The position numbers and the translations under genes were made by a program. This document shows, piece after piece, positions 30,500 through 60,578 of a DNA stretch of 64,000 bases. How positions within the stretch are numbered: position 1 is the stretch's first letter; each line of letters starts with the position of its first letter. Origin of the DNA: Ginsengibacter hankyongi (lineage in GTDB: Bacteria > Bacteroidota > Bacteroidia > Chitinophagales > Chitinophagaceae); assembly GCF_008710285.1 (NCBI RefSeq), contig NZ_VYQF01000001.1, positions 124,001-188,000 of the forward strand, read 5' to 3'. The notes below the pieces were generated by a model. That model was not told the origin of the DNA. It made no database searches and saw only the letters and a program-made list of their open reading frames with translations.

Positions 30500-30541
30500 T
30501 GATTTCCATCATTTATTGAGTGCAGGGAGAATCTAATCTTG
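30500..30541 (+). promoter_or_regulatory. T-type (FNR-like) site and -7 box of the USP/ATPase/permease operon
   Basis: TGATTTCCATCA at 30500-30511 and TAATCTTG at 30534-30541, centres 32 bp apart. The start codon at 30588 follows about 45 bases later. Confidence 0.55.
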
Positions 30542-30587
30542 CATTTTGCTTCCCAAATTGTCCTGTCTAACTTATAAATATTTAAAC

Positions 30588-31427
30588 ATGAAAAAGTTTT
30601 TAGCAGTTTTTGACGGTTATAAAATGTCGAACAGCACATTGAATTATGCCATACAATTATCCAAGGTTGTTAATGCAAATCTTGTAGGTGTTTTTTTGGA
30701 TGAATTTATTTACCGGAACTACAATGTAGTAGCGGTGATGAAAACAAACGAGGATTATACTGAAAAAATGAAAGAGATGGATGCCAAAGACCAGCTCAAA
30801 AGAGACGAAGCAGCACAACATTTTCAAAAGGCTTGTGGCAAAGCTGGTATTAGCTATTCTATTCACAGGGATAAAAGTATCGCTCTACAGGAGCTAAAAC
30901 ACGAAAGTATGTTTGCCGATCTTATTATTATAAACGAATACGAAACATTTACAAAATATAAAGAAGAACTTCCCACCCGCTTCATGAAGGATTTGCTGAG
31001 TGATGTGCAGTGCCCGGTATTATTAGTTTCAAATAAATTCAAGCCGGTTGATAAAATAGTTTTGTTATACGATGGTGCACCTTCATCATTATATGCAATA
31101 AAAATGTTCAGTTATTTGTTTGGCAATTTCCAGGATCTGCCGGTAGAAGTATTTTCAGTAAATGAACGGAAAGCAAACCTTCGCTTACCGGACAATAAAC
31201 TGATGAGAGAATTTATTAAAAGACATTTTCCAAAAGCAACTTATAACGTTGCAACGGGCGAGGCTGAAGAACAAATACTGGATTATTTACATAACCATAA
31301 AGAAAACGAATTGATAGTGCTAGGCGCTTACAGGCGAAGTGAACTTTCACGTTGGTTTAAAACCAGCATGGCCGATACGCTGATGCGAAAACTGGACACG
31401 GCTTTATTTGTAGCGCATAATAAATAA
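30588..31427 (+). CDS. Universal stress protein, tandem UspA-like domains
   Basis: The ATG at 30588 gives 279 residues (MKKFLAVFDGYKMSN); the upstream ATG at 30546 precedes the expected transcription start region only slightly and adds an atypical leader. Two UspA-like halves: the first with FADLIIINEYETF and CPVLLVSN, the second from KIVLLYDGAPSSLYA with ELIVLGAYRRSELSRWF. The classic ATP loop G-2x-G-9x-G is not intact in either half, so it is probably a non-ATP-binding type. First gene of an operon with the P-type ATPase and AI-2E permease. Confidence 0.88.
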   Translation: MKKFLAVFDGYKMSNSTLNYAIQLSKVVNANLVGVFLDEFIYRNYNVVAVMKTNEDYTEKMKEMDAKDQLKRDEAAQHFQKACGKAGISYSIHRDKSIALQELKHESMFADLIIINEYETFTKYKEELPTRFMKDLLSDVQCPVLLVSNKFKPVDKIVLLYDGAPSSLYAIKMFSYLFGNFQDLPVEVFSVNERKANLRLPDNKLMREFIKRHFPKATYNVATGEAEEQILDYLHNHKENELIVLGAYRRSELSRWFKTSMADTLMRKLDTALFVAHNK

Positions 31428-31496
31428 AATTCATCAACATAAATAAAAATACAATAATGCCGCTTACCCACTACGAAGTAAAATAACAGATTGCTA

Positions 31497-34073
31497 ATGA
31501 ACTGGCACAGATTAAGCATACCCGAAGTTTTTGAATTGCTTGGCACCAGCCAACATGGCTTAAGTACAACAATAGCCGAAGACAAGTTACTGGAGATTGG
31601 CCCCAATGAATTACAGGAAGGTAAAAAGAAAAGTGTAGCCAGCATATTGTTGGCGCAGTTTAAAGATGTCATGATTTTGATATTAATGGCTGCGGCAATC
31701 ATATCAGGAATCATCGGCGACATCACTGATACCATCGTTATTCTTGTAATTGTTTTATTGAATGCGGTTATTGGCTTCTTACAGGAATACCGTGCAGAAA
31801 AAGCCATGCAGGCCTTAAAACGAATGGCTATAATGCAGGCAAAAATAATGCGGGATGGAAGAATCGCATGGTTGCCGGCAACTGTATTAGTACCAGGTGA
31901 TATTGTTTTTTTAGAAGCCGGTAATGCAGTGCCTGCAGACGTTCGCATAATTGAATCAGTTAATTTAAAAATTGAAGAAGCTGCACTTACCGGGGAATCT
32001 AATGCTGTAGATAAGATAACGCATTCGCTGGAAGTTGATGATCTACCCGTTGGAGATAAAAAAAATATGGGATTTAAAGGCACGTTTGTTACGTATGGAA
32101 GAGGAACCGCGGTGGTAATTGCAACCGGTATGCAAACAGAATTAGGCCGCATCGCAAAAATGCTGCAGGAAGATGAAACACTTACTCCGCTACAACAACG
32201 CATGGCCTCTTTTGGAAAAAAGCTTTCCGTGTTGGTGTTGTTTTTATGCGTCTTGTTTTTTGTGGCAGGCTGGTTGCGTGGAGAAGATGTTGTAAAAATG
32301 ATACTAACGAGTATTTCGTTAGCCGTAGCCGCAATTCCTGAAGCACTGCCTGCAGTTATTACAATTTCACTTGCATTGGCTGCTAAAAGAATGATTCGTT
32401 TGAACAGCCTCATAAGGAAATTACCTGCGGTAGAAACGTTAGGCTCGGTTACATATATCTGCACTGATAAAACAGGAACACTTACCAAAAATAAAATGTA
32501 TGTAGAAGATGTATTTGTGAACGGAAAAGTGTACGACCGAAATGAACTTTCTTTTATATTAGAAAAGCACGAGGTCATGTTACTGCTGCAAGCCTTTGCA
32601 CTCAATAACGATTCTTTTGAAGATGCTGATAAAGTAATAAAAGGCGACAGTACCGAAATTGCGTTGTTGGAAGTATCAAGAGAACAAAAAATACAAACGG
32701 GTACATGGCCCCGCCTTTCGGAAATAGCATTTGATGCAGACCGCAAATTGATGACAACTTTCCATTTGCATGAAAATAAAATTATTTCTTTTACAAAAGG
32801 AGCACCGGATATTTTATTGCAGCATTGTATAAACATTGACATGCCGGTGTTACAAAAGCAAGTAGATAAAATGGCAGCCAAAGGCCTCAGGGTATTGGGT
32901 TTCGCCTTTAGATATTGGGATGCAGTACCGCCAAATCCTGATAGTGAATTTCATGAATCCGGCTTGCAATTTTTAGGATTAGCGGGTATTATTGATCCGC
33001 CACGTGAAGAAGTATTTGATGCCGTAGCCCAATGCAAAACTGCCGGCATTATTCCGGTGATGATAACAGGTGATCATCCTCTTACTGCAAAAACTATAGC
33101 GCAACGCATTGGTATTTTAAGCAACGAAAATGATTTGGTAATAACGGGCCAGGAACTTGCTGCCTTAGATAATGAAAGCTTCTTAGCCAAGGTGGAAAAG
33201 ATAAAAGTATATGCACGTGTTTCGCCGGAACAAAAATTACATATTGTAAAAGCATTGCAACGAAAAGGACACTATGTTGCCATGACAGGAGATGGCGTAA
33301 ACGATGCTCCATCATTAAAAAGAGCCAATATTGGCATTGCCATGGGCATTACCGGAACTGATGTTTCTAAAGAAGCAGCTCACATGATTTTATTGGACGA
33401 TAATTTTTCTACCATTGTAAAAGCAGTGCGGGAAGGAAGAAGAATTTATGATAACATCCTTAAGTTCATCAAATACCTTATGACAAGTAACTCCGGTGAA
33501 TTATGGACTTTGTTGATAGGCCCTATCATCGGATTGCCGGTGGCATTATTACCAATTCATATTTTATGGATAAACTTAGTTACCGATGGGTTGCCTGCCA
33601 TTTCATTATCGTTTGAAAAAGCAGAAAAAAATATTATGAACCGTCCTCCCCGCCCACCGCAGCAAAGTGTGTTTGCCAACGGCAGAGGTACGCACATGAT
33701 TTGGGTGGGTATGCTCATGGCTGGCATTGCATTGTCTGCACAAAGCTGGGCCATTAGCCATGGCTTACATTGGCAAACGATTGTGTTTAATGTCTTATGT
33801 CTTAGCCAGATGGGGCATGTGCTTGCCATCCGGTCAGAATCTCAATCTTTTTTTAGTGCCGGAATTTTTTCAAACAAACCCTTAATTGGTTCAGTGCTCG
33901 CAGCTTTTCTATTGCAGTTTAGTGTAACCTATATACAATTTTTACAACCCATATTTAAAACCCAGGCTTTAACCGTACACGAATTTATTTTAGTAGGCGC
34001 AGCATCATCGGTAGTATTCTTTGCAGTTGAAATTGAAAAAATTATTTCCAGGAAATATGGTTTAAGAAAATGA
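31497..34073 (+). CDS. P-type cation ATPase, P2A (Ca2+-type)
   Basis: 858 residues from the ATG at 31497 (a TTG lies 6 bases upstream). N-terminal actuator entry (ALTGESNAVDK), helix-4 ion motif VAAIPEALPAVIT, phosphorylation site CTDKTGTLTKN (aspartate about 324), nucleotide-binding FTKGAPDILLQ and hinge TGDGVNDAPSLKRANIGIAMG. Helix 6 reads NLVTDGLPAISLSFE. PEALP and NLVTDGLPA place it in the bacterial P2A group that contains Ca2+ pumps and mycobacterial CtpF. It lies in a USP-led operon with a T-type promoter. Ion specificity unproven. Confidence 0.92.
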   Translation: MNWHRLSIPEVFELLGTSQHGLSTTIAEDKLLEIGPNELQEGKKKSVASILLAQFKDVMILILMAAAIISGIIGDITDTIVILVIVLLNAVIGFLQEYRAEKAMQALKRMAIMQAKIMRDGRIAWLPATVLVPGDIVFLEAGNAVPADVRIIESVNLKIEEAALTGESNAVDKITHSLEVDDLPVGDKKNMGFKGTFVTYGRGTAVVIATGMQTELGRIAKMLQEDETLTPLQQRMASFGKKLSVLVLFLCVLFFVAGWLRGEDVVKMILTSISLAVAAIPEALPAVITISLALAAKRMIRLNSLIRKLPAVETLGSVTYICTDKTGTLTKNKMYVEDVFVNGKVYDRNELSFILEKHEVMLLLQAFALNNDSFEDADKVIKGDSTEIALLEVSREQKIQTGTWPRLSEIAFDADRKLMTTFHLHENKIISFTKGAPDILLQHCINIDMPVLQKQVDKMAAKGLRVLGFAFRYWDAVPPNPDSEFHESGLQFLGLAGIIDPPREEVFDAVAQCKTAGIIPVMITGDHPLTAKTIAQRIGILSNENDLVITGQELAALDNESFLAKVEKIKVYARVSPEQKLHIVKALQRKGHYVAMTGDGVNDAPSLKRANIGIAMGITGTDVSKEAAHMILLDDNFSTIVKAVREGRRIYDNILKFIKYLMTSNSGELWTLLIGPIIGLPVALLPIHILWINLVTDGLPAISLSFEKAEKNIMNRPPRPPQQSVFANGRGTHMIWVGMLMAGIALSAQSWAISHGLHWQTIVFNVLCLSQMGHVLAIRSESQSFFSAGIFSNKPLIGSVLAAFLLQFSVTYIQFLQPIFKTQALTVHEFILVGAASSVVFFAVEIEKIISRKYGLRK

Positions 34074-34095
34074 GTGACAATAAAAAATTAGTGAC

Positions 34096-35175
34096 ATGAA
34101 TCCGAACCACACCGCTCTTCAATCATATCTTAAGTTGTTACAAATAACATTACTAACGGTTGCGCTAATGTATTTTGGAAAAGGATTATTGATACCACTT
34201 TCGTTTTCACTATTACTTGCATTAATTCTCTACCCCGTTTGTAATTGGCTCGAAAAACATAGGCTGAACCGCATTGTTGCGATAGCTATTTCAATAATAA
34301 TTGTCATAATTTTTTTTGCAGTTATAATCTGGCTATTGCTATGGCAGGTAGCATATCTTAAAGATGATCTTCCTTTTCTTACCCAAAAAATTAAAGATGC
34401 TTTGCAACAACTCCAGCAATGGTTTTATAAAAATACAGGTATTGTAGGCCTTGAAACAACATGGATAGAGAACACTGCGCGGAGTTCAGGCAGCAGTGTC
34501 AGCACACTCATTCAATCTCTTTTTAAAAGCGTTAGCAGCATCTTATTTTCACTCTTTATAATTCCGGTTTTTACAGCCCTGTTTTTATACCATCGTGAGC
34601 AATTTGTCCGGTTCTTACAATCACTCACCGCGGAAAAATACCATGCACGTCTTCAAACGATTCTACATGAAACCTCTTATACTTACTATAAATATATTGT
34701 CGGACTTATTAAGGTGTACCTCGTTGTTGGAACACTAAATAGTATTGGCTTGTTATTGTTAGGCGTTGATCATGCCATCTTATTTGGAATGCTTACTGCC
34801 TTTATGACAATGATCCCGTATGTTGGCATTATCATCAGTTCAATGCTTCCAATAACAGTGGCATGGGTAACCACTAATTCACTGCTTTATCCGTTAGGAG
34901 TGATCGCCATTTTTGCATTTGTTCAATACCTTGAAAACAGTGTTATTTTTCCGAAAATAGTAGGCCAGCAATTGAATGTAAGCAGTTGGGCTATATTAGT
35001 AGCGCTTATAGCCGGTGGAATTGTTTGGGGAGTTTCGGGTATGGTTCTATTTATGCCTTTTGTTGCCATCCTGAAAATCATCAGTGGCTATATAGAGGAA
35101 TGGAAGCCTTTGAATATTTTATTGAGCCGTGAGGAAAAACAAAAAACAAAAAGGATTATTAAATCACCCAAATAA
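34096..35175 (+). CDS. AI-2E/PerM-family permease
   Basis: 359 residues with eight or so helices and the family marks LLIPLSFSLLLALILYPVCN-type N-terminus (here starting FGKGLLIPLSFSLLLAL), a soluble middle, GVDHAILFGMLTAFMTMIPYVG and LEPVL-like NSVIFPKIVGQQLNVS. The family exports AI-2, Na+/H+ or other solutes; substrate cannot be read from sequence. It follows the ATPase gene by 22 bp and is the last gene before a bidirectional terminator. Confidence 0.88.
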   Translation: MNPNHTALQSYLKLLQITLLTVALMYFGKGLLIPLSFSLLLALILYPVCNWLEKHRLNRIVAIAISIIIVIIFFAVIIWLLLWQVAYLKDDLPFLTQKIKDALQQLQQWFYKNTGIVGLETTWIENTARSSGSSVSTLIQSLFKSVSSILFSLFIIPVFTALFLYHREQFVRFLQSLTAEKYHARLQTILHETSYTYYKYIVGLIKVYLVVGTLNSIGLLLLGVDHAILFGMLTAFMTMIPYVGIIISSMLPITVAWVTTNSLLYPLGVIAIFAFVQYLENSVIFPKIVGQQLNVSSWAILVALIAGGIVWGVSGMVLFMPFVAILKIISGYIEEWKPLNILLSREEKQKTKRIIKSPK

Positions 35176-35177
35176 AA

Positions 35178-35207
35178 AAACAGCCGTTATTAATTCACCG
35201 GCTGTTT
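35178..35207. terminator. Bidirectional terminator
   Basis: AAACAGCCG (35178-35186) pairs with CGGCTGTTT (35199-35207), loop of 12 bases, with A- and T-rich flanks. It separates the convergent permease and thioredoxin genes. Confidence 0.75.
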
Positions 35208-35230
35208 ATAAAAAATATTATCCGTTCGCC

Positions 35231-35614
35231 TTAACTATTTCCTTCTTCCACTTTTACCGGTGCAAGCAAATGATCTTCTATTACTTTTTTCAACACATGT
35301 TTTGGGAGAGCACCTGGTTGCATCATTGGCTCACCATCAGCACCAATGAAAAGAATAGTTGGTATGCTTTGAATGCCAAACACAGCCGACAGTTCCTGTT
35401 CAACATCTGTATTTACTTTATAGATGACCAACCTGCCTTCATATTCTTTAGAAAGGTCTTCCAGTATGGGAGCCACCATTTTGCAGGGGCCACACCAATC
35501 AGCATAAAAATCGATGATGGCAGGTAATTCCCCCTGGTATTTCCAGTCCTGTACCGTTTCGTAATTAAATATTTTATCCTTAAAATCCCGGGTCGTAAGT
35601 TGTATAGTTGCCAT
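35231..35614 (-). CDS. Thioredoxin (extended)
   Basis: 127 residues: about 30 leading residues, then FYADWCGPCKMVAPI with C41 and C44, KVNTDVEQELSAVFGI and cis-proline in SIPTILFIG. Longer than the thioredoxin at 22688 at both ends. Cytoplasmic. Its promoter has the S-type site, tying it to the sulfide/persulfide group despite its position next to stress genes. Confidence 0.93.
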   Translation of the reverse strand: MATIQLTTRDFKDKIFNYETVQDWKYQGELPAIIDFYADWCGPCKMVAPILEDLSKEYEGRLVIYKVNTDVEQELSAVFGIQSIPTILFIGADGEPMMQPGALPKHVLKKVIEDHLLAPVKVEEGNS

Positions 35615-35634
35615 AACAATTATTATTATTTTTG

Positions 35635-35678
35635 TAAAATTAAAACAGTTAATAAACCTTATGAGTAACTTTTGTTAC
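35635..35678 (-). promoter_or_regulatory. S-type Crp/Fnr site and -7 box of the thioredoxin gene
   Basis: GTAACTTTTGTTAC at 35665-35678, a perfect dyad, and TAATTTTA (minus) at 35635-35642, 33 bp apart centre to centre, 21 bp before the start codon. Confidence 0.68.
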
Positions 35679-35760
35679 TATTCTGCAATAGAATATGCCT
35701 GCCCGTTCTTATGTTTTTATGATATAAATAAACAAAATTATAGTTCATTGTCAGCACGGG

Positions 35761-36141
35761 TTAGATACTATTTATCAGATACACAATCAGGAACACACTC
35801 ACTAAAAAAATAAATGCGGTAAGAATTGTAATGAGTAAAGAAGAATGTTGATAGCCTCCTTCATCCAATTGCCTGGCCGAGCTTTTATAACGCATATATG
35901 AGAGCACGGCAGTGATAGTTCCCACACCTACTAAAATAATACCCAATATACCAGAGTATCCCTTTGAGGGTACAACGTCTGCCTTGCCAAGTATCAGGGA
36001 TATTTGTTTTACAAACAGCGAAAATTTAACGACTACAAAACCAAATGCCATAATGCCAACACTTGTTCTTATCCATGCAAGGAATGTTCTTTCGTTAGCA
36101 AGGTGATCGCTAGCGTTGCCCTGCCTTTTAAATTCTTCCAT
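35761..36141 (-). CDS. DUF202 (YidH-like) membrane protein
   Basis: 126 residues with the conserved DUF202 N-terminus DHLANERTFLAWIRTSVGIMAFGF, where the acidic and arginine residues precede helix 1, and three helices in all (the others near GILGIILVGVGTITAVLSY and LLITILTAFIFLVSVFLIVY). Inner-membrane protein of unknown role. Single gene with no recognised activator site. Confidence 0.88.
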   Translation of the reverse strand: MEEFKRQGNASDHLANERTFLAWIRTSVGIMAFGFVVVKFSLFVKQISLILGKADVVPSKGYSGILGIILVGVGTITAVLSYMRYKSSARQLDEGGYQHSSLLITILTAFIFLVSVFLIVYLINSI

Positions 36142-36259
36142 TTTTAATAATCATTTATAATAATTGGAACGCATAATAAAGATAATTTCTTTCATGCAGT
36201 AATCGTTCCAAATAAATTAATAAATGATGGGATGAGCGAGGCTGATTCCCTCGGTGGAT

Positions 36260-36859: not shown

Positions 36860-36963
36860 ATTCGCTTTATAAATAAAATATTAAAAAGGTAAATTACCTG
36901 GTGCCGCCCATAAAAATATTTAATTCCTTAAACTATAAATAATTTTAGCAAACAGGTAGCCCT

Positions 36964-37545: not shown

Positions 37546-37640
37546 AATTAGTTTGAGAATTATTCAATGCCAACTGAAATTTTAATCGTATGATATTTTA
37601 ATTCTCTTTATGCTACGTAATTTAAAAGATCATTGATTAT

Positions 37641-39056: not shown

Positions 39057-39081
39057 GATAACCGTTTTTTATTTTATATGG

Positions 39082-39125
39082 CAAAAGTGCAAACATTTCT
39101 TCCCATATTTGGTAACATTTGTTGC
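39082..39125 (-). promoter_or_regulatory. S-type Crp/Fnr site and -7 box of the persulfide dioxygenase gene
   Basis: GTAACATTTGTTGC at 39112-39125 (one base off the dyad) and CACTTTTG (minus) at 39082-39089, a TAnnTTTG box with one change; 33 bp apart. Confidence 0.55.
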
Positions 39126-40049: not shown

Positions 40050-40066
40050 ATATTCTTATTTATGAA

Positions 40067-40774: not shown

Positions 40775-40817
40775 TGACCCAGGTCATATTTAACAATAGA
40801 ATCTTCCTTTATTTTTA
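40775..40817 (+). promoter_or_regulatory. T-type (FNR-like) site and -7 box of the ABC exporter operon
   Basis: TGACCCAGGTCA at 40775-40786 and TATTTTTA at 40810-40817, exactly 33 bp apart. The expected transcription start (about 40825) supports the ATG at 40904 over the earlier one at 40838. Confidence 0.65.
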
Positions 40818-43251: not shown

Positions 43252-43252
43252 A

Positions 43253-44027: not shown

Positions 44028-44070
44028 TGACTCTTATCATAGCATAGTTACGACTTCACTAATAACTTTA
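44028..44070 (+). promoter_or_regulatory. T-type (FNR-like) site and -7 box of a lipoprotein gene
   Basis: TGACTCTTATCA at 44028-44039 and TAACTTTA at 44063-44070, 33 bp apart; start codon 20 bases further. Confidence 0.65.
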
Positions 44071-46299: not shown

Positions 46300-46342
46300 T
46301 GACAGCCATCATGTATTCTACCTATTATGTGAAATAATTTTA
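46300..46342 (+). promoter_or_regulatory. T-type (FNR-like) site and -7 box of the T9SS surface protein
   Basis: TGACAGCCATCA at 46300-46311 and TAATTTTA at 46335-46342, 33 bp apart; start codon at 46385. A further dyad, TGATGATCGTCA at 46074-46085, has no box at 33 bp. The rest of the 45933-46384 gap shows nothing. Confidence 0.6.
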
Positions 46343-50737: not shown

Positions 50738-52084
50738 TTAAACGCCAAACGGAAAGGTTTCCGGAACTTGTTTACCATCAGGTTTAATATGCAACGGATG
50801 TAAAGCTTTTGTCTCATCCAGGTAAATGAATGCATCGTAGCGCATCGGTAAAATAGTGGGCACATAATTCCCGTATTCTTCATATTTGGAATTATATACA
50901 ACGCCAACAGCACGGTGACCAATATGACTTTCCATCAACATATCATTATTAGTAAAATCATCCATTAGTAATAATTTATTTTCTTTCCCTGCGCTATGCA
51001 ACAAGTACTCCCAACTTCCTTTCGTGGCCTCGGGTAGTTGCATTACACGCATCTCTGCACCCCAGCTGTGGCCGGCCATTACTGTTCCTTTATAAGAACC
51101 AAAACCAACCAGCGCAACTCCTTTATCATGATGCTGCATCCTTGCGAGCTCACCAATATTAAACATGCCTTCATCTGCCATGTCAGTTGCTCTCGCATCG
51201 CCAATATGGGTGTTATGCGCCCACACAATTATTTTAGAATTATCGCCATGAAATTGTAATAAACGCTCCAAAGTATCGGCCATATGCCTGTCACGCACGT
51301 TCCAGCTATGAGGACCGCCTTTAATCATCGCACGATAATATTTTTCGGCATTTACTGTAACCAACGCATTTTGTTCTGCACTAAAAACATTTTCATGATC
51401 GGTGTTGTAAGTTGGTAATTTTTGTCGAATCTCTTTTAATAAATGCACTACTTCAGTCTCGCATATTTCCGGAACAAATTGTGACGCTCTTGCATAAGAA
51501 CTTCCCTCGTCTTTGCGATAAGGCTCAAAGCATTGATAGGCTTCCTCTGCTACTTTTAATGCTGAAGGATCTGTTTTTTTTAAGTACTGCATTATGCTGT
51601 CCATACTTTCCCAAAGGCTATATACATCCAGCCCATAAAAGCCTGCTTTTTTATTTGCCCCCAGTCCTGTATTATGTTGCTTGAGCCAATCGGCCAGCGC
51701 TACAATTTCCCAGTTGGCCCACATCCACGTAGGCCAACGATTAAAAGCATGCAATACTTTAAATGCGCTTTTGTTAGCAGCATCATAATCTTTTACAAAC
51801 CGGTTTAGCCGGTAACAATCAGGCCAGTCCCCTTCCACCGCAATAAAGTTGAAGCCTTTTTCTTCAATCAAGCGTTTTGAGATATGAGCCCTCCAGGTAT
51901 AATATTCATGTGTACCGTGGCTGGCTTCGCCCAACATAACAATTCTTGCATCGCCGACCCTATCGAACAAGGGTTGCAGATCGGCTTTGCTCTGTAAAGG
52001 ATAAGCCCATTGTTTAATAGCACTAACAGCTTCGCTTTCGTTTGCGATGGTGTCTTTGGTAAATTGGCGTCGCATCGTTTTCAT
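50738..52084 (-). CDS. Erythromycin esterase-like protein
   Basis: 448 residues with the family blocks RIVMLGEASHGTHEYYTWRA, FIAVEGDWPDCYRLNRFV, NRWPTWMWANWEIVALADWL, GFYGLDVYSLWESMDSI, RDRHMADTLERLL, KIIVWAHNTHIGDARATDM and GHSWGAEMRVMQLP. The conserved Glu/His set is that of EreA-like hydrolases, but non-resistance members are common and linked with phosphoribosyltransferases, as in mycobacterial Rv2030c. A phosphoribosyltransferase gene lies 1.5 kb away. Divergent from DUF892; a T-type site in between. Confidence 0.9.
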   Translation of the reverse strand: MKTMRRQFTKDTIANESEAVSAIKQWAYPLQSKADLQPLFDRVGDARIVMLGEASHGTHEYYTWRAHISKRLIEEKGFNFIAVEGDWPDCYRLNRFVKDYDAANKSAFKVLHAFNRWPTWMWANWEIVALADWLKQHNTGLGANKKAGFYGLDVYSLWESMDSIMQYLKKTDPSALKVAEEAYQCFEPYRKDEGSSYARASQFVPEICETEVVHLLKEIRQKLPTYNTDHENVFSAEQNALVTVNAEKYYRAMIKGGPHSWNVRDRHMADTLERLLQFHGDNSKIIVWAHNTHIGDARATDMADEGMFNIGELARMQHHDKGVALVGFGSYKGTVMAGHSWGAEMRVMQLPEATKGSWEYLLHSAGKENKLLLMDDFTNNDMLMESHIGHRAVGVVYNSKYEEYGNYVPTILPMRYDAFIYLDETKALHPLHIKPDGKQVPETFPFGV

Positions 52085-52213
52085 TTTAAATTGTTATCGT
52101 TGTTGTATTAATCTATTTATATAAATAATCCGTCTACGTTCTTTCCAAAAAGTATCTACTACAAAATAAACTTCTTTTCAACCGAAACAAATGAGGAGGA
52201 TTATATCTTCAAA

Positions 52214-52256
52214 TGATGATGATCATTTCTCTTGAAAGCCCGAACGCATAATTTTG
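52214..52256 (+). promoter_or_regulatory. T-type (FNR-like) site and -7 box of the DUF892 gene
   Basis: TGATGATGATCA at 52214-52225 and a perfect TAATTTTG at 52249-52256, 33 bp apart. The box lies inside the longer reading frame from 52232, so the ATG at 52277 must be the real start. Confidence 0.7.
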
Positions 52257-52276
52257 AAAAAATTAAAACAAACATC

Positions 52277-52801: not shown

Positions 52802-52811
52802 AAATGGCATT

Positions 52812-53465: not shown

Positions 53466-53542
53466 AGCTTACGCAAATAACGCATTGGAGATTTTTTGGA
53501 AAGTCTAATCATCGGCAAAATAAAAAAGAATAAACTTAATAT

Positions 53543-54175: not shown

Positions 54176-54290
54176 TTGATAATTAGTTATCATTTTAATT
54201 CCGCTACCGGGTTAATATCTACCGTTCTATAAAATAATCCTCAGAGAAACCCACTGAAAAATTCCTCTTGATTACTGTCATCATAAGCCC

Positions 54291-54333
54291 TGATTATCCT
54301 CATAGCAAAGGGTTTGTAATATGACTATCTTAA
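54291..54333 (+). promoter_or_regulatory. T-type-like site and -7 box of the BON gene
   Basis: TGATTATCCTCA at 54291-54302 (one base off TGAY-N4-RTCA) and TATCTTAA at 54326-54333, 33 bp apart. A better dyad, TGATTACTGTCA at 54269-54280, lies 22 bp upstream, two helical turns away. Confidence 0.45.
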
Positions 54334-54367
54334 AGAAAATAAATTTATCAAGTTAAAACTTTATATC

Positions 54368-55042
54368 ATGAAAACAGACAGTCAAATTCAACAAGATGTG
54401 ATGGACCAATTAAAATGGGAACCATATCTAAATGCTGCTCAAATTGGAGTAGCTGTAAAAAATGGGATCGTAACACTTTCCGGGCAAGTTGATACATATT
54501 CCAAAAAACTGATTGCAGAAAATGCCGCAAAAAAAATTTCAGGAGTAAAAGCAATTGCAGAAGACATACAAATTGGGGTGTCCCCAGCATATAATAAAAC
54601 AGATGCAGAAATTGCAGAAGCTGTTCTTAATGCTTTGAAATGGCATACTGCGGTACAGGAAGAAAAAATAAAAGTAAAGGTAGAAGATGGGTATGTTAGG
54701 CTTGAGGGCGAAGTTGAATGGAATTTCCAACGCAAAAATGCTGCTGCGGCTATTGAAAACCTGGCAGGAGTTCGTTCCGTAATAAATTTAATTACGGTAA
54801 AACCAAAAATTACCGCTTCAGACATTCAGGATAAAATCAATGAGGCTCTTAAAAGGAGTGCCACTATTGATGCCGGAAAAATTACTGCGGAAGTTATAGG
54901 AAGCAAGGCTATCCTTCGCGGTAAAGTTCGTTCATTTGCAGAAAAAGAAGATGCTGAAAATGCTGCATGGTTTGCTCCTGGAATAACTGCTGTTGAAAGT
55001 AAAATTGAAATTGAAGTTCCGGAATATTCTTTTGAATATTAA
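54368..55042 (+). CDS. Triple BON-domain protein
   Basis: 224 residues with three BON repeats, about 1-70, 75-145 and 150-222, each with the pattern of an opening helix (QIQQDVMDQLKWEPYL; AEIAEAVLNALKWHTAV; DIQDKINEALKRSATI), IxVxVxxGxVxLxGxV strand (IGVAVKNGIVTLSGQV) and AENAAxxIxGVxxI (AAKKISGVKAI). No signal peptide is visible, so it is probably cytoplasmic or non-classically exported, unlike OsmY. BON domains bind phospholipids and are induced by osmotic and other stress. Confidence 0.9.
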   Translation: MKTDSQIQQDVMDQLKWEPYLNAAQIGVAVKNGIVTLSGQVDTYSKKLIAENAAKKISGVKAIAEDIQIGVSPAYNKTDAEIAEAVLNALKWHTAVQEEKIKVKVEDGYVRLEGEVEWNFQRKNAAAAIENLAGVRSVINLITVKPKITASDIQDKINEALKRSATIDAGKITAEVIGSKAILRGKVRSFAEKEDAENAAWFAPGITAVESKIEIEVPEYSFEY

Positions 55043-55089
55043 TAAGCAGTTTCAATTTAATCTGAATTGAAAAGCAGTTTTGTTTGATT

Positions 55090-55126
55090 AAGCTGTCCCG
55101 ATAAAAAAAATTGAGACAGCTTTTTT
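55090..55126 (+). terminator. Terminator after the BON gene
   Basis: AAGCTGTC (55090-55097) and GACAGCTT (55115-55122) with a T-run after it. About 50 bp downstream of the BON stop codon. Confidence 0.75.
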
Positions 55127-55337
55127 ATTTAAATTATATCTTCAAATTGTTCACTATCTGACGACTGAAAATATATTTTCATTTGATAAAGCTCAAGGAA
55201 AAAATTATAAGATTTGATAAAGGAAACGTTATAAGGCAACGGCCATTACCGGTAACTAACGGCTAGAAGGGCGATGTATTTTTTAAAAGCCTTCTTCATT
55301 TTCCGGTATAGAAAATTAAATATGATACTTTTAAAAA

Positions 55338-55670
55338 TTATAAACGCACTGTGCTTACTTCTTCTTCAGGCAGCGCTTGTTTCCCGGTAATTTGTTGCTT
55401 TATCAACTTCTTCAATTCATGAATTGCTTCTTTAGCTGCACTCTTAAAATTTTGCGCTCTTGCCTGCACCACAAGATCGTCGCCATGCATCGTCAGCTTA
55501 ATGCCGCAAACTTTATTTTCGGTTGGAATAATAGTTTTATCTGGCAGCAATGATACTTCTGCCCTGGATATCTTCTTATCAGTATGTAAAAGTTTTATTA
55601 ACTGTCGCGTTATATCTGTTACCAGGTTTTCAGGCACTTTTCCATAGACCGTATTAAATTCGATAGTCAT
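55338..55670 (-). CDS. Short HPF/RaiA-type ribosome hibernation factor
   Basis: The ATG at 55670 gives 110 residues (MTIEFNTVYGKVPEN); the longer start at 55727 overlaps the promoter and is unlikely. Beta-alpha-beta-beta-beta-alpha order of S30AE domains: ITRQLIKLLHTDKKISRAEV, then NKVCGIKLTMHGDDLVVQAR, and FKSAAKEAIHELKKLIKQQ. Lacks the long C-terminal dimerisation domain, so it is the short (HPF/YfiA) type, which blocks the ribosomal A/P sites in resting cells. T-type promoter. Confidence 0.8.
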   Translation of the reverse strand: MTIEFNTVYGKVPENLVTDITRQLIKLLHTDKKISRAEVSLLPDKTIIPTENKVCGIKLTMHGDDLVVQARAQNFKSAAKEAIHELKKLIKQQITGKQALPEEEVSTVRL

Positions 55671-55705
55671 AAAAAAAAATTTAAGTAATGAATAATCTGT
55701 TCGGG

Positions 55706-55748
55706 TAAATATAAAATCATTCGACACTAATGCTAATGACTTTAATCA
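55706..55748 (-). promoter_or_regulatory. T-type (FNR-like) site and -7 box of the HPF gene
   Basis: TGACTTTAATCA at 55737-55748 and TATATTTA (minus) at 55706-55713, 33 bp apart; start codon 35 bases further. Confidence 0.65.
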
Positions 55749-55790
55749 GCCATAAAAATGATATACAGCAGAAAGTACTCTATAACGAAG

Positions 55791-56813
55791 TCAGGGAATT
55801 AAATGAGAACCATAATATGCAGTGCCCAACAAAGCAGTTTTATTATTTAAAATAATTTTTATCGGAACTTTTTCAAGCAAATAATTTAATCTCCCGCTGT
55901 TACAAAATGAAGAGTAAAATTGATTATCCTGGAATAAGGAAATAATTTGCGGAACAATACCGCCGCCTATAAACAGGCCACCGGTAGCCTTTAATTTCAA
56001 AACAAGATTTGCCGATTCATACGCCAGGAATTGTATAAACCAATCCATAGTTTCCTTACAAATTTTACATTCAGTAACATGTGTACTTATAACAGCTGGT
56101 AAATTATCATTCTTAAATTTTTCTTTAAGCCAGTTCGGCTCATCTCTTTTCTTTTCATCCCGAAGGAATTCATAAATGTTTACAATACCGGGTCCGCAGA
56201 TGAGGCGTTCCCAACTTACATGTTCAAATTTCTTTTGCAGAAAAGTATATAACTCAAAATCGAATTGATTTCTCGGAGCAAAATCACTATGGCCACCTTC
56301 GGTAGCAAATGGATGATAACAATTACCGTCATAATAAAGCCCGGCCTCTCCCAGCCCGGTGCCTGGCGCAATTATAGCAGCATTCCCTGCAACATCACTT
56401 CCGGTATTTAGCGGCATAATATCCTTGTCATTAAGCAGCGCTAATCCATACGCAGTTGCTTCAAGATCATTAATCAATTTTATTTTTTTTATGCCAAAAT
56501 GCTTAGACAATTCATCACTATCTACTTCCCAGGCTAAATTAGAAAGCTTTGCGTGTCCATTCAATACAGGCCCTGCCACACCAAAGCAAATAACGTCAGG
56601 AAGAGGAAAATTTTTTATGAAAATATCAGCCAGCTCAATAATATTTTTATAATCTACGGATTTATAATGTGCCTCATGTATGGTAGTAATATTGTTACCA
56701 TCTGATTTAATAAGTGCAAGATTGGTTTTAGTTGCACCGATGTCACCGGCAAGTATATTATTAACCCGGCCAGTTTTATTTTTTGCAGCTGTTGTATTAA
56801 ATTTCAAAAGCAT
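55791..56813 (-). CDS. Glucokinase
   Basis: 340 residues from the ATG at 56813 (two further ATGs upstream, at 56837 and 56834, add a hydrophobic leader). Glk-family marks: ILAGDIGATKTNLAL (phosphate loop), CFGVAGPVLNGHAKLSNLAW, INDLEATAYGL (catalytic aspartate), APGTGLGEAGL, TEGGHSDFAPRN and ATGGLFIGGGIVPQI. It phosphorylates glucose with ATP. Follows a USP gene on the same strand with an 107-bp gap; probably shares its T-type promoter. Near the phosphorylase-like gene, suggesting glycogen use in the resting state. Confidence 0.9.
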   Translation of the reverse strand: MLLKFNTTAAKNKTGRVNNILAGDIGATKTNLALIKSDGNNITTIHEAHYKSVDYKNIIELADIFIKNFPLPDVICFGVAGPVLNGHAKLSNLAWEVDSDELSKHFGIKKIKLINDLEATAYGLALLNDKDIMPLNTGSDVAGNAAIIAPGTGLGEAGLYYDGNCYHPFATEGGHSDFAPRNQFDFELYTFLQKKFEHVSWERLICGPGIVNIYEFLRDEKKRDEPNWLKEKFKNDNLPAVISTHVTECKICKETMDWFIQFLAYESANLVLKLKATGGLFIGGGIVPQIISLFQDNQFYSSFCNSGRLNYLLEKVPIKIILNNKTALLGTAYYGSHLIP

Positions 56814-56920
56814 AATTAATAAATAAGGCAACATCAATTATAATTAAGTTGCCCGGTGTAAAATATTAAGAATACTTATTTCATTTGCATTTTATGTAAT
56901 CGGCTACTGCTAATTAATAG

Positions 56921-57739
56921 TTAATGAAGTGCCACAACAGGAATTTCACTATTCAATATGATTTGTTTTGAATGACTTTTATGAAATAATTTATCAATTA
57001 TGTCATGATGTTTTGGTAAAACAAACAGTATGTCAATTTTATTTTTTTCCGCGAAGCTCATAATACTTTCATCCGCGTCTTTACCTTTAATGAAGTGATA
57101 CCATGGTTTTAACGAAGCCATTTTTTGCTTCATAACTTTTATTTCCAGGCTGTTTTCTTTATTTGTTGTCTCAGGCTCCGAAGTATTAATTACATGCAAC
57201 TCGGCATTAAAATCGTTCACAAATAATTTTATCTCATCAATTATCGACGAGTCCACAACAGTATCAAACTCACAGGCGAGCCCGATCTTTTTTATTGATG
57301 AATATTTTGTTATTAATGGTATAGTTATTAATGGACAGGTTAAATATTTCATGGCAAAAACCGTATTGCTGCCAAATAATAAACGTTCAGCTACAGTCTT
57401 CCCCTGGCTCCCCATAACAACCGCGTAGGGATTTATATAGCCACAGACAACTTTTAACTCATGCGGAAAGAATACACCCATTCTTACTTCGGTATCTATC
57501 TTTATTTTACCATTTGCCTTGCTCAGCAAATTTGTTTTTAATTCACCTATATATTTTTCAGCATCTTTTCTTATCTCATCTATATCCAGTGGAACCGGTA
57601 TCTCACTGTAACTAACAGGTATTTGATATACATGCAATAACAAGATATCGGCATTAATGGCCAGCGCCATTTTCGCAGCATATTCAGCAGCATTCGAAGC
57701 TGAAGAAGAAAAATCCGTTGCAACCAGGATCGTTTTCAT
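56921..57739 (-). CDS. Universal stress protein, tandem UspA
   Basis: 272 residues from the ATG at 57739 (MKTILVATDFSSSASNAAEY); a start at 57757 is possible. First half has the full ATP loop: VVMGSQGKTVAERLLFGSN (G-2x-G-9x-G-S) and CPLITIPL; second half is degenerate (DILFVLPKHHDIIDKLFHKS, SEIPVVALH). Likely ATP-binding through domain 1. Paired with a similar protein at 59136 around the Balon-like gene. Confidence 0.92.
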   Translation of the reverse strand: MKTILVATDFSSSASNAAEYAAKMALAINADILLLHVYQIPVSYSEIPVPLDIDEIRKDAEKYIGELKTNLLSKANGKIKIDTEVRMGVFFPHELKVVCGYINPYAVVMGSQGKTVAERLLFGSNTVFAMKYLTCPLITIPLITKYSSIKKIGLACEFDTVVDSSIIDEIKLFVNDFNAELHVINTSEPETTNKENSLEIKVMKQKMASLKPWYHFIKGKDADESIMSFAEKNKIDILFVLPKHHDIIDKLFHKSHSKQIILNSEIPVVALH

Positions 57740-57781
57740 AAAAAATATTTTTTGCAATTGATATATTAGTTACTACTTAGG

Positions 57782-57824
57782 CAAAACTAATAATAGCCGG
57801 GAGTAAATTCTATGATAACCATCA
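57782..57824 (-). promoter_or_regulatory. T-type (FNR-like) site and -7 box of the USP/glucokinase genes
   Basis: TGATAACCATCA at 57813-57824 and TAGTTTTG (minus, perfect) at 57782-57789, 33 bp apart. Confidence 0.7.
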
Positions 57825-57912
57825 GCAGGCATAATGATTTCAGCATACATGCATGATTTATAAAATCGATGGTACCAAAAGAATCTATAATAATACACAT
57901 CATTGGTTGTAG

Positions 57913-57955
57913 TGATAATAATCATGTTTTCTTTCTTATACCTAAGATAGATTTG
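57913..57955 (+). promoter_or_regulatory. T-type (FNR-like) site and -7 box of the Balon-like gene
   Basis: TGATAATAATCA at 57913-57924 and TAGATTTG (perfect) at 57948-57955, 33 bp apart. Start codon at 57973. Confidence 0.7.
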
Positions 57956-57972
57956 ACTTAAAATTCAGGGCC

Positions 57973-59052
57973 ATGTCAACAAATATTTCACAAAAGGAAA
58001 GCACTGCATTTGGTGCTTTAAATACTGAGCCATCAGTATTTATAATTATGCCCTTCGAACCAATGATGTCAACAAAGTACCAACTTGAATTGAAGCTTAA
58101 ACAGGTAAGTAAAATTGTTGAAGAAAAATTATTAAAAAATCACATAGCCGCTGAGGCACAGCCAATTTTACTCAGGCTACAGTTACTAATAAAGGAGCTT
58201 AATTACAATTCATTAAAAAAAAGCATAGCCATTTTATTATCTGCTTCGGATGAGCAGGTTATTTACTTTGACATACCGGTAAGAGAAAAAGTATCGGTGG
58301 ATGAATCGTTTGGAATTTGTGATATCATATTAAATAAGAAAGAAAAAATCGGGTACCTGGTATTGTTGTTAAATTCCGATAAGTCTAAAATGTATGTTGG
58401 AAATTTGAAAGATTTACAATTAATAAAATCCAACAAGAGTAGTGATTTCCCATGGGATAAAAACGATATACCTCAGAGAGTGGCTAATTTTTCAGATCCT
58501 GGTGATAGAAAAGAAATATTGTTACATAAATTTCTGCGTCACATGGACCAGGGATTGTCTCTTATACTAAGGGCCTATAATTTACCTGTGTTTATAATTG
58601 CGCCTGAAAGAGTTCTCGGGCACTTTAAAAAGATAACCCGGAATGAAGAAAAACTTGTTGCCGAAATTCATGGCGACTATCTTGACTCCAGCGAAACAAC
58701 CATATTTAAAATCCTACAACCGCATTTACAAAATTGGAAAAAATTAAAACAACAATACATTTTACAGGAGATCGAAAAAGCCAGAAATGAACATATACTT
58801 GCATGCGGCATTAAGGATGTATATAATACGGCCACTTATAAAAACAGCAGGCTGCTGGTAATTGAAAAAGATTTAATCACTTCGAAAAACACGTTGGAAG
58901 TCGATCAATATATTAGCCGGCATAGTACTCCTTTTTACATTAAAAGTACCCTGGATGGTATAATTGAAAAGGTGATAAAGTATGGCGGAAATGTGGAAGT
59001 TGTAGATAAATTGCAAGCCAACGAGCAAATAGCTTTGATACCATACTATTAA
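57973..59052 (+). CDS. Balon-like (baeRF3) ribosome hibernation factor
   Basis: 359 residues, near the family length. An N-terminal helical region (YQLELKLKQVSKIVEEKLL) and the baeRF entry VIYFDIPVREKVSVDESFGI, a middle domain (KFLRHMDQGLSLILRAYNLP, VFIIAPERVLGHFKKITRN, LVAEIHGDYLDSSETTIF) and a C-terminal eRF1_3-like domain with RLLVIEKDL, DGIIEKVIKYGGNVEVVDK and ANEQIALIPYY. This order matches bacterial homologues of archaeal release factor aRF1, whose founding member Balon sits in the ribosomal A site of resting cells. It has no GGQ. It lies between two USP genes and 2.3 kb from HPF. Assignment is by family pattern, without a search. Confidence 0.72.
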   Translation: MSTNISQKESTAFGALNTEPSVFIIMPFEPMMSTKYQLELKLKQVSKIVEEKLLKNHIAAEAQPILLRLQLLIKELNYNSLKKSIAILLSASDEQVIYFDIPVREKVSVDESFGICDIILNKKEKIGYLVLLLNSDKSKMYVGNLKDLQLIKSNKSSDFPWDKNDIPQRVANFSDPGDRKEILLHKFLRHMDQGLSLILRAYNLPVFIIAPERVLGHFKKITRNEEKLVAEIHGDYLDSSETTIFKILQPHLQNWKKLKQQYILQEIEKARNEHILACGIKDVYNTATYKNSRLLVIEKDLITSKNTLEVDQYISRHSTPFYIKSTLDGIIEKVIKYGGNVEVVDKLQANEQIALIPYY

Positions 59053-59135
59053 ATCATAATTTTAAACTGTTTGTTCCATCTCTATCCATTTCATATAATT
59101 TTTAACTACTTTTTTTATGCGTTCTAAATAATCGT

Positions 59136-59963
59136 TTACGCCTCTGTTACAAATAACATGGGAATGTGTGGATGATCAATAAAAGATTTTGATTGACTTT
59201 TATGAAAGAGTGATTCCAGCAACCCATGTTTTTTGGGAATTATTATAAGCAGGTCTGCTTTGTTGTCTTTTGCAAATTCTAATACGCCAGCTTCTATATT
59301 AGGACTGGTAATAAAATGCAGTTGGGGATGAAATTTATCAAGTTGATTTTGAAAGGTGATGGCTCCTGTCATTTCTTTTTTATGAACACCCGAATCATTT
59401 TTCATTATACATACAATGTCTAACCGGGCATCAAAGAGTTTCAGGAGGTTTTTAATATAATCGAAATGAATAGTCTCCGACACGTCTTTTAAGTCGGACG
59501 CTAATGCAATATTTTTTATTCCTGTAAATTTTTTATTTTCAGGGATTACAATTACGGGGCAATGTAAATTTTTTGCAGCATAAATAGTATTACTTCCAAA
59601 AAGTAAATGCGAAGTTGCTCCCGCACCTTTAGTGGCCATTACCACAGCAAAAGGTTTATTGATCCTACACAAGCTTTTAATCTGTTGCTGAAAAAAGCCA
59701 AATACTGTTATTGTTTCAACCAAAATATTATTGCCTGTTGCCTGTAAAATTTTGTCGCAGAGTGCAGCCATTTCAGTTTCAGCTTCATCCAGGAGATCTG
59801 AATAAATGGCCTTTGATACAGGAAGTTCTGCGGCCATAATCGGTAAATGAATTACATGAAGCAGTATTAATTTTGCGTTAATGCCAAAGGCCATATCAGC
59901 TGCATAGTTTACCGCATTTATTGAAATCGGCGAAAAATCCGTAGGAGCAATAATTGTTTTCAT
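59136..59963 (-). CDS. Universal stress protein, tandem UspA
   Basis: 275 residues (MKTIIAPTDFSPISINAVNYA). Similar throughout to the USP at 56921, including ATP-loop region MATKGAGATSHLLFGSN, where the first glycine is alanine, so ATP binding is less certain. Second half again ends in DLLIIIPKKHGLLESLFHKS. Probably a duplicate of the 56921 gene. T-type promoter divergent from the four-helix protein at 60119. Confidence 0.9.
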   Translation of the reverse strand: MKTIIAPTDFSPISINAVNYAADMAFGINAKLILLHVIHLPIMAAELPVSKAIYSDLLDEAETEMAALCDKILQATGNNILVETITVFGFFQQQIKSLCRINKPFAVVMATKGAGATSHLLFGSNTIYAAKNLHCPVIVIPENKKFTGIKNIALASDLKDVSETIHFDYIKNLLKLFDARLDIVCIMKNDSGVHKKEMTGAITFQNQLDKFHPQLHFITSPNIEAGVLEFAKDNKADLLIIIPKKHGLLESLFHKSQSKSFIDHPHIPMLFVTEA

Positions 59964-60002
59964 TTTTGCATTTTGAGATAAGCAGTTATTGTTTTAGCTC
60001 AA

Positions 60003-60045
60003 GCAAGTTATAGATTGATGGTAAGTAATCTCATGACACAAGTCA
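60003..60045 (-). promoter_or_regulatory. T-type (FNR-like) site and -7 box of the USP at 59136
   Basis: TGACACAAGTCA at 60034-60045 and TAACTTGC (minus) at 60003-60010, 33 bp apart; the box deviates at two positions from TAnnTTTG. Confidence 0.55.
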
Positions 60046-60055
60046 ATTTAAACGT

Positions 60056-60098
60056 TGACTGGCATCATGGAATGCACGAGAACTTACTTGTATTCTTG
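60056..60098 (+). promoter_or_regulatory. T-type (FNR-like) site and -7 box of the membrane protein at 60119
   Basis: TGACTGGCATCA at 60056-60067 and TATTCTTG at 60091-60098, 33 bp apart. Its centre is 22 bp from that of the divergent USP site, so two dimers could sit on the same face of the DNA. Confidence 0.6.
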
Positions 60099-60118
60099 AG
60101 CAGCTTTAAAACTGTACA

Positions 60119-60496
60119 ATGCAGCAAAAAGAAATAGACTTTCTATATAAAAATAAAATTCGAAATAGCCTGTATATAAAAATACTGGCCCATATAACCA
60201 GTATTTTAGTTTGCGGTTTTTTTGCATCTTTTATTATCGGAATAGGGCTGCCTGATATTATGAAAATGAATTTTACGCACATAACGTTATTCAACCTCCT
60301 TCTTGCATTGCCTTTATTGGGCTATGTTATTGTTTTATTTCGCGAAAATATTGGTGCTATCGTTATGTTATTGGGTGGAATAGCCTTAATGATATATCAT
60401 TCTTACTATCGCGATATCGATATGGCATTTATATTCGGGCTACCTTTTATTATATGTGCCCTATTATTTTTTTGGCATTTGAGAACAGCAAAATAA
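60119..60496 (+). CDS. Four-helix membrane protein, unknown
   Basis: 125 residues, four helices (ILAHITSILVCGFFASFII, ITLFNLLLALPLLGYVIVLF, IGAIVMLLGGIALMIYHSYY, MAFIFGLPFIICALLFFW), short loops and a basic N-terminus (YKNKIRNSLYIK). Bacteroidota have many such small proteins of unknown role. It has its own T-type promoter within the stress island, so likely stress-induced. Confidence 0.65.
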   Translation: MQQKEIDFLYKNKIRNSLYIKILAHITSILVCGFFASFIIGIGLPDIMKMNFTHITLFNLLLALPLLGYVIVLFRENIGAIVMLLGGIALMIYHSYYRDIDMAFIFGLPFIICALLFFWHLRTAK

Positions 60497-60536
60497 AAAT
60501 TGTATAAAGTAAAATTTTGTTTGTATGATGGTAGTA

Positions 60537-60578
60537 TGACTGAAGTCAGTCCGGCATGGAATTAGAATCATATAATTA
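60537..60578 (+). promoter_or_regulatory. T-type (FNR-like) site and -7 box of the Hsp20 operon
   Basis: TGACTGAAGTCA at 60537-60548, a perfect dyad, and TATAATTA at 60571-60578, 32 bp apart. Start codon of Hsp20 at 60628. Confidence 0.6.

Follow-up and report, generated by a model that had tools for sequence, protein, structure and literature searches.

Paired FNR-like operators and a receiver-Crp/Fnr fusion that most likely reads them: a candidate low-oxygen and dormancy regulon in Ginsengibacter hankyongi

Introduction

Which regulator acts on the stress genes that lie close together in one part of the Ginsengibacter hankyongi genome, and does it act there only? The window analysed here, 64,000 nucleotides of this genome (G000:C1:124001-188000; G000 is the source genome, 5,505,520 bases), contains an island of genes for universal stress proteins (USPs), Hsp20 and others, whose promoters carry dyads of the form TGAY-N4-RTCA at a set distance from a -7 box. 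A sequence-only reading had described twelve such promoters as a stress regulon, switched on by one FNR-like regulator encoded outside the window, and had pointed to Crp/Fnr proteins with E-x-x-S-R in the recognition helix. We followed this up by computation, and so established the sites, their spacing, a second dyad, the target sets, the linkage to a fusion protein, the recurrence across genomes and the kinship of the regulators. Our proposal, to which we give a probability of roughly 0.7, is that the dyads are paired FNR-like operators of a low-oxygen respiration and dormancy regulon, read in G000 most likely by a kinase-driven fusion of a receiver domain with a Crp/Fnr protein.

Throughout, dyad stands for TGAY-N4-RTCA and box for TAnnTTTR. 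A gap of 23 bases places their centres 33 bp apart, and the arrangement dyad-N23-TAnnTTTR is called a full or perfect unit; two dyads at gap 10, 22 bp centre to centre, make a tandem. The control for pattern counts was the same pattern read backwards, and the intergenic DNA of the window was defined by our own gene list.

Results

Phased dyads in the island

There are 17 dyads in the window. Shuffling the sequence 100 times gave 4.1 ± 2.1 and never as many as 17. Fifteen of the 17 are fully intergenic, where 1000 order-1 Markov resamplings of the intergenic DNA gave a mean of 0.59; the earlier estimate of about one chance dyad in this DNA was thus about right. The perfect unit occurs seven times in the intergenic DNA of the window, for 0.002 expected from the same resamplings. 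Dyads and spacing both withstood the comparison with randomised DNA.

All twelve promoters were found (Table 1). Seven have a perfect box at 33 bp, and the boxes of the remaining five are imperfect: at 33 bp for the DUF7670 gene (dyad 60056, 5/6) and for the USP ending at 59963 (dyad 60034, minus strand, 4/6), and at 32 bp for the dyads at 30500 and 60537 (each 5/6), the first of which has a half-site ATCA 22 bp upstream. In the BON promoter, the perfect dyad at 54269 has no in-register box and is the partner, 22 bp upstream, of a degenerate dyad, TGATTATCCTCA at 54291, which is followed 33 bp on by TATCTTAA (5/6, read by eye). This degenerate dyad is presumably the one that had been listed with a single deviation, and with 54291 counted as the BON dyad, the count of ten dyads at 33 bp, with two more at 32 bp, is correct. 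The window dyads at 953, 6787, 25843, 30349 and 46074 lie outside the twelve-promoter set.

One spacing and a second dyad, genome-wide

In the whole genome the dyad occurs 387 times, for 215 occurrences of the reversed pattern. Combined with TAnnTTTR at gaps of 8 to 38, on both strands, it gave 43 matches, 23 of them at gap 23 and 20 spread over the other 30 gaps, while the reversed whole pattern gave 23 over all gaps and none at gap 23. The tally was made from match coordinates, and the 23 matches at gap 23 were recovered in two further scans. The sequence-only reading had proposed a genome-wide scan at 32-34 bp; the favoured distance is 33 bp. Seven of the 23 perfect units lie inside the island and 16 elsewhere, before ccoNO, a hydrogenase-type subunit gene and others; in addition, hemA and hemH carry tandem dyads. 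This single preferred spacing, together with the 16 units outside the island, indicates that the phasing is real and that the regulon is genome-wide, with a dense cluster here. An island-only regulon is ruled out by the same 16 units.

Pairs of dyads 0-30 bases apart occur at 11 places in G000, 10 of them at exactly gap 10. When the 23 perfect units were aligned, 14 of them had TCA at -13, for a mean of 0.46 across other offsets, and seven had TGA at -22 (mean 0.28). At least four of the six letters of an upstream dyad were present in 16/23 perfect units, against 0-2 at five shifted registers, and in 32/45 related units, against 0-6 at shifted registers. In most cases the operator is a pair of dyads, with 22 bp from centre to centre. 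Both this second, upstream dyad and the genome-wide extent had been overlooked by the earlier reading.

The FNR consensus is TTGAT-N4-ATCAA, and the rule for class II Crp/Fnr activators is a dyad centred at -41.5, over the -35 region, so that the promoter can do without a -35 element. The sites described here have the core TGAT-N4-ATCA and lack the outer letters: the outer T (at -1) is present in 4/23 own and 12/45 related units, the outer A (at +12) in 0/23 and 2/45. A T immediately 3' of the proximal dyad is found in 22/23 own units. The -7 box is that of Bacteroidota primary-sigma promoters (TAnnTTTG), with TAnnTTTR favoured at one spacing genome-wide. Given a -7 box centred near -8.5, the proximal dyad would lie at about -41.5 and the distal one near -63.5. 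None of the 23 own units has TTTG in the -33 region, and 3/45 related units do. The distance of 33 bp to the centre of the -7 box and the missing -33 TTTG fit an FNR-like operator in a putative class II geometry, as had been proposed.

About 5 kb to the right of the window, a PEP synthase/PPDK gene (L026:5159-7561; G000:C1:193159) has a perfect tandem dyad. The island may extend beyond the window.

Target genes

Targets in the island encode USPs, a P-type ATPase, an HlyD/MacB/ABC exporter, DUF892, dienelactone hydrolase-like, PRTase and BON proteins, an S30AE/HPF-like protein (its Pfam match, 21.4 bits, is below the 23.7 cut-off), glucokinase, a baeRF3 (Balon-like) protein, a DUF7670 protein and Hsp20. 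Outside it, the likely first genes after perfect units encode a bifunctional CcoNO, a NuoE/NuoF-like subunit, a fatty acid desaturase, a nitroreductase, a USP, a beta-eliminating lyase and TMEM175. Tandems without a perfect box precede genes for HypC, a NuoL-like protein, a methyltransferase and PEP synthase/PPDK, and the genes for glutamyl-tRNA reductase (hemA) and ferrochelatase (hemH) diverge from one such tandem. Perfect units also stand before genes of no clear role here (CheB/CheR-PAS, a HATPase protein, a weak CHAD match, GyrI-like, LolA-like, alpha/beta hydrolase). Classic FNR/FixK genes are thus included among the targets outside the island: cbb3 oxidase, hemA/hemH, hydrogenase-type genes and a USP. 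For cco and heme genes, such control is described in Alphaproteobacteria in parts of PMC4999443.

A 115-aa protein (L025:3127-3471, plus strand; G000:C30, at about 104 kb) is encoded behind a dyad-N23-box of its own. It matches only the N-terminal part of the island Balon-like protein (36% over 81 aa, E 3e-16), and is either a stand-alone N-domain or a shortened copy.

A receiver-Crp/Fnr fusion and a neighbouring kinase

G000 encodes 11 proteins with a cNMP-binding domain. One of them, of 352 aa (G000:C1:810179-811234; L029:7177-8235), is a fusion with the domain order receiver, cNMP_binding, HTH_Crp_2, and its gene starts 4 bp after that of a PAS-PAS-HisKA-HATPase kinase. Its DNA-binding half is of the Crp/Fnr kind (HTH_Crp_2, E 1.9e-15), not the LuxR-type HTH joined to a receiver in FixJ. 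The N-terminal CxxC..C with an internal Cys is lacking in the fusion and, by eye, among all 11 proteins. The same stretch also holds genes for Hsp20, a P-type ATPase and a radical SAM protein, with ccoNO about 12 kb away. Read by eye, a small gene that precedes the kinase has a dyad upstream, with a CAATTTTG box at gap 23.

Eighty loci of relatives, fetched with the fusion protein as sole query, contained 335 dyads for 54 reversed. Boxes lay at gap 23 in 46 cases and at no other gap in more than 5; dyad pairs had gap 10 in 42 cases and no other gap in more than 3. A unit and/or a tandem was present in 43/80 loci. Within about ±10 kb of the fusion in 20 genomes, five of them (G203, G176, G219, G217, G197) chosen with prior knowledge of nearby sites, 21 units were found against 0.87 expected from genome totals; without those five, there were 11 against about 0.66. 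In 18/20 genomes a kinase gene adjoins a fusion gene, and frequent neighbours are relatives of the USP, Hsp20, CcoNO, radical SAM or baeRF3 proteins of the island or of the G000 fusion stretch. The recognition helix reads E-x-x-I-R in 102/110 fusion loci, the other eight being unmatched by the expression used.

The first PAS domain of the kinase (PAS1) matched the structures 10jx (3.5e-15, best), FixL 1d06 (1.2e-13) and DosP 1v9y (2.5e-13). Its His62 aligns with the histidine that serves as heme ligand in FixL and DosP, and a His is found there in 69/80 loci, with 7 gapped, the kinase counted being the best match of the locus and not always the neighbour of the fusion. The similarity to FixL and DosP, together with the aligned His62, makes oxygen sensing by the kinase through heme plausible.

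Around a second receiver-Crp gene in another genome, G195, at least 9 tandem dyads and a baeRF3 gene lie within about 38 kb (G195:C56:46090 to about 84000), an even denser island than that of G000.

Recurrence across the class

The class was taken as Bacteroidia from the named relatives of the fusion, and 247 genomes were drawn evenly from it. The full unit was found 1163 times, against 79 for the reversed pattern, and is present in 209 genomes; the tandem occupies 327 places in 114 genomes, where its reversed control occurs in 1 genome. Upstream of ccoN (30 loci, the best among the 114 genomes that had a match, out of 197 searched), a dyad was present at 27 loci, a tandem at 14 and a full unit at 19. 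Upstream of baeRF3 (all 11 loci, the island copy included) the corresponding numbers were 8, 5 and 7; the gene itself is found in only 10/247 genomes at E <= 1e-20. G000 is part of each set, and the control was 0 in both.

When genomes were classed by regulator (E <= 1e-60 for the fusion, E <= 4.4e-53 for FNR; profile counts and E-value classes were transferred by hand from separate scans), mean units and tandems were 4.99 and 1.62 with the fusion only (n=80), 10.68 and 3.76 with fusion and FNR (n=38), 4.12 and 0.86 with FNR only (n=58). With neither regulator (n=71) they were 1.68 and 0.06, a mean that is raised because the cut-off places some FNR-like genomes (e.g. G148, G175, G020, G125) in this class. 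The gap-23 control was 0.30-0.35 in each of the four classes, and two of the 118 fusion-bearing genomes (G054, G142) have a split or partial fusion. Since FNR-only genomes also carry units, the phylogenetic profile alone does not single out the fusion.

Four-cysteine FNRs as probable readers of the same operator

Genomes without the fusion and with ccoN units (e.g. G002, G082, G139) have a plain regulator on the ccoN contig. Among the best 30 loci of this FNR-type regulator, some of them in genomes that also have the fusion, an N-terminal CxxC..C (CxxC-x8-C) was found in 27/30 and an internal Cys in the context C-x-[I/L]-[P/S] in 29/30, a context like that of E. coli FNR Cys122. The helix reads E-x-x-I-R in 29/30 (one by eye) and E-x-x-T-R in the remaining one. 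A genome that lacks the fusion can have, along with the same operator at ccoN, a four-cysteine FNR whose recognition helix matches that of the fusion. In a tree of 70 rows (20/110 fusion, 10/30 L002-type, 10/30 L004-type and all 30 FNR-type loci; the L002 and L004 types are compared below) the fusion rows grouped together (85/83). With the L002 type added (97/97), they branched among the four-cysteine FNRs when the L004 type was taken as outgroup, the root being drawn at the midpoint. As other members of the class would read the same operator with a four-cysteine FNR, the sensor appears to have been swapped and the operator kept.

Competing explanations

Three types of Crp/Fnr protein were compared over 30 neighbourhoods each (about ±1.5 kb). 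Those of the fusion contained 51 dyads (control 4), 8 tandems and 6 full units; those of the L002 type, a small regulator beside nosZ, 41 dyads (control 5), 1 tandem and 9 units; those of the L004 type, with E-x-x-S-R, 12 dyads (control 5), no tandem and 3 units. It is unlikely that the L002 type, which may respond to NO or N2O, reads most of the island dyads or shares them with the fusion. Its dyad-rich neighbourhoods, its E-x-x-I-R helix, as in the fusion (21/30; the other 9 unmatched by the expression used), and its place beside nosZ in G000 speak for it, but it is found in only 32/247 genomes (E <= 1e-25), against 118 for the fusion, it has a single tandem where the fusion has 8, and the nosZ stretch of G000 (L030) has neither a perfect gap-23 unit nor a tandem. 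In that stretch (L030:1815-5178) the regulator is next to nosZ, for a Sec-dependent N2O reductase, and a cytochrome c gene. The E-x-x-S-R helix of the L004 type (23/30; V-x-x-S-R in 6, unmatched in 1) is that of E. coli FNR, a dyad lies 3' of its gene in G000, and full units lie 3' of it in G195 and G217; G195 and G217 have the fusion as well, however, the dyads are without the outer T of TTGAT, and on its neighbourhood counts this regulator was the weakest of the three types and was rejected as the main reader. The E-x-x-S-R protein that the sequence-only reading had in mind is thus a very improbable reader. A shared regulator encoded outside the window, which it had also proposed, is supported, the favoured candidate being the fusion.

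A different kind of objection is that the sites might be the product of chance or composition, palindromes being common in AT-rich intergenic DNA. The shuffles, the Markov resamplings, the favoured single spacing, the reversed controls, the tandems in 114/247 genomes against 1 and the gap-23 and gap-10 peaks in 80 fusion loci leave this idea practically no weight. Somewhat more probable, and yet slimmer than the E-x-x-S-R proposal, is that the dyads are repressor sites or act at -41.5 mainly by repression. The sign of regulation cannot come from computation, but these promoters lack a -33 element, their spacing is constant to the base, as in class II activation, and for many of the targets one would expect higher expression at low oxygen; we infer activation.

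The L004-type gene of G000 (L028:4517-5155) is followed within about 15 bases by its dyad (L028:5165), likewise in G195:C53 and G217:C6, and in G000 a TauE/SafE gene comes next. A Crp/Fnr-type gene in the window itself (15109-15741, minus strand) has a V-x-x-S-R helix and 38% identity to the L004 type; no link between it and the dyads was found, though no separate search was made.

Discussion

In the mechanism that we propose, the dyads would be operators of an FNR-like activator. A dimer at -41.5 would stand in for the missing -33 element and touch RNA polymerase; a second one would usually bind at -63.5, on the same face of the helix and two turns further upstream. In G000 the activator would most likely be the fusion, which would receive its phosphate from the PAS-PAS histidine kinase of the gene 4 bp upstream. 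PAS1 of this kinase resembles the heme PAS of FixL and DosP and probably reports low oxygen. As oxygen falls, the phosphorylated fusion would switch on high-affinity respiration (cbb3, heme and hydrogenase-type genes) and the dormancy set of the island (USPs, Hsp20, HPF-like and Balon-like factors, DUF892, BON). The regulator is probably a two-component protein that took over the DNA sites of FNR, and other members of the class would read the same operator with a four-cysteine FNR, the sensor having been exchanged and the operator kept.

Several observations weigh against this proposal. Neither unit nor tandem is present in 37/80 fusion loci, 17/118 fusion-bearing genomes have 0-1 unit, and FNR-only genomes carry units as well. 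No kinase is beside the fusion in 2/20 neighbourhoods, and just 18/72 kinase upstream regions (control 1; kinase again taken as best match) have a dyad, so that autoregulation of the kinase operon is not general. Heme in PAS1 is only putative, because the best match, 10jx, a PAS kinase, also aligns a histidine at the His62 position; moreover, the distal Arg of FixL is replaced by Met in this kinase. For several of the targets beyond the island, a connection with oxygen is not obvious. Lastly, as the L002-type regulator is present in G000, has the same helix and lies in dyad-rich neighbourhoods, the operator may be shared by a second regulator.

For the class as a whole, the evidence leans towards an oxygen and dormancy regulon of Bacteroidia on a fixed double operator (-41.5, -63.5), read either by a [4Fe-4S] FNR or by a receiver-FNR fusion with a FixL-like kinase. 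The fusion would have arisen from FNR, with the receiver replacing the iron-sulfur sensor, and the operator and target promoters (ccoN, the Balon-like gene) would have remained unchanged.

FNR of Proteobacteria is a [4Fe-4S] oxygen sensor and a class II activator. The system described here resembles it in the core of the site, the predicted -41.5 geometry, the respiration-type targets and the cysteines of the plain Bacteroidia relatives. It differs in that the G000 candidate has a receiver domain instead of the cysteine cluster and E-x-x-I-R instead of E-x-x-S-R, and in that the dyads are paired and followed by a T, without a conserved outer T. DosR, which governs the dormancy regulon of mycobacteria, is a NarL/FixJ-family protein with a DNA site of its own, whereas the fold here is Crp/Fnr. 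USPs, Hsp20 and a Balon homologue respond to a low-oxygen two-component system there and, by our prediction, here as well.

From the parts of PMC4999443 considered, FixL-FixJ-FixK is similar in its FixL-like PAS kinase and in the replacement of a cluster-bearing FNR by a cysteine-free Crp/Fnr protein at cco and heme promoters. Unlike that system, a single protein, the receiver fused to a Crp/Fnr half, takes the place of FixJ and FixK, the phylum is another, and the heme of the kinase is only putative. There it is also proposed that Caulobacterales lost FnrN and came to use FixLJ in its stead; no closer parallel was found. Sections of PMC10901736 report Balon genes near RaiA and Hsp20 and the activation of mycobacterial Balon homologues by hypoxia. 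The Balon-like gene here is likewise near HPF/RaiA-type and Hsp20 genes, but is placed in a defined oxygen-type regulon, with a full unit before 7/11 copies. Crp/Fnr homologues of Flavobacteriales and Saprospiraceae are placed near MalR, with carbon sensing predicted, in portions of PMC8510549, and no description of the dyad operator was found in those portions. A search of the open-access literature gave no report of such a regulon or fusion in Bacteroidota.

Regulation here would work like that of class II FNR/FixK; the paired operator and the receiver-FNR fusion are what is new. The sequence-only reading was right in kind in proposing an FNR-like class II system, and our account departs from it on which regulator acts, on the pairing of the dyads, on how far the regulon reaches and on its evolutionary background. 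For a large bacterial class, the analysis names a regulator, an operator and a set of targets with which low-oxygen and dormancy control can be tested. If true, it describes a sensor swap in a global regulator with promoters held constant, and a ribosome hibernation factor of the Balon type that answers to a defined oxygen-type switch.

Map of the island

Table 1. Promoter elements and a recurrent target in the window (positions are those of the window).
Feature	Coordinates	Strand	Elements	Gene(s) concerned
Promoter	30500..30541	+	dyad TGATTTCCATCA, -7 box TAATCTTG, gap 22, 5/6	USP / P-type ATPase / AI-2E
Promoter	40775..40817	+	dyad TGACCCAGGTCA, box TATTTTTA, gap 23	HlyD/MacB/ABC exporter (Pfam)
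Promoter	44028..44070	+	dyad TGACTCTTATCA, box TAACTTTA, gap 23	44090 (lipoprotein-like start)
Promoter	46300..46342	+	dyad TGACAGCCATCA, box TAATTTTA, gap 23	46385
Promoter	52214..52256	+	dyad TGATGATGATCA, box TAATTTTG, gap 23	DUF892 / DLH / PRTase (Pfam)
BON promoter	54269..54333	+	distal dyad 54269-54280, degenerate proximal dyad 54291-54302, box TATCTTAA 54326-54333, gap 23	BON
Promoter	55706..55748	-	dyad TGATTAAAGTCA, box TATATTTA, gap 23	S30AE/HPF-like
Promoter	57782..57824	-	dyad TGATGGTTATCA, box TAGTTTTG, gap 23	USP / glucokinase (Pfam)
Promoter	57913..57955	+	dyad TGATAATAATCA, box TAGATTTG, gap 23	baeRF3 (Balon-like)
Balon-like release-factor-fold protein, recurrent regulon member	57973..59052	+		Pfam baeRF_family3
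Divergent promoter	60003..60098	.	two perfect dyads 22 bp apart (60034-60045, 60056-60067); boxes 60091-60098 (+, 5/6) and 60003-60010 (-, 4/6)	DUF7670 (+); USP (-)
Promoter	60537..60578	+	dyad TGACTGAAGTCA, box TATAATTA, gap 22, 5/6	Hsp20 (Pfam)

Genes 44090 and 46385 gave no match in the Pfam search. Divergent from the DUF892 promoter lies a gene of the erythromycin-esterase family (Pfam PF05139; window 50738-52084, minus strand).

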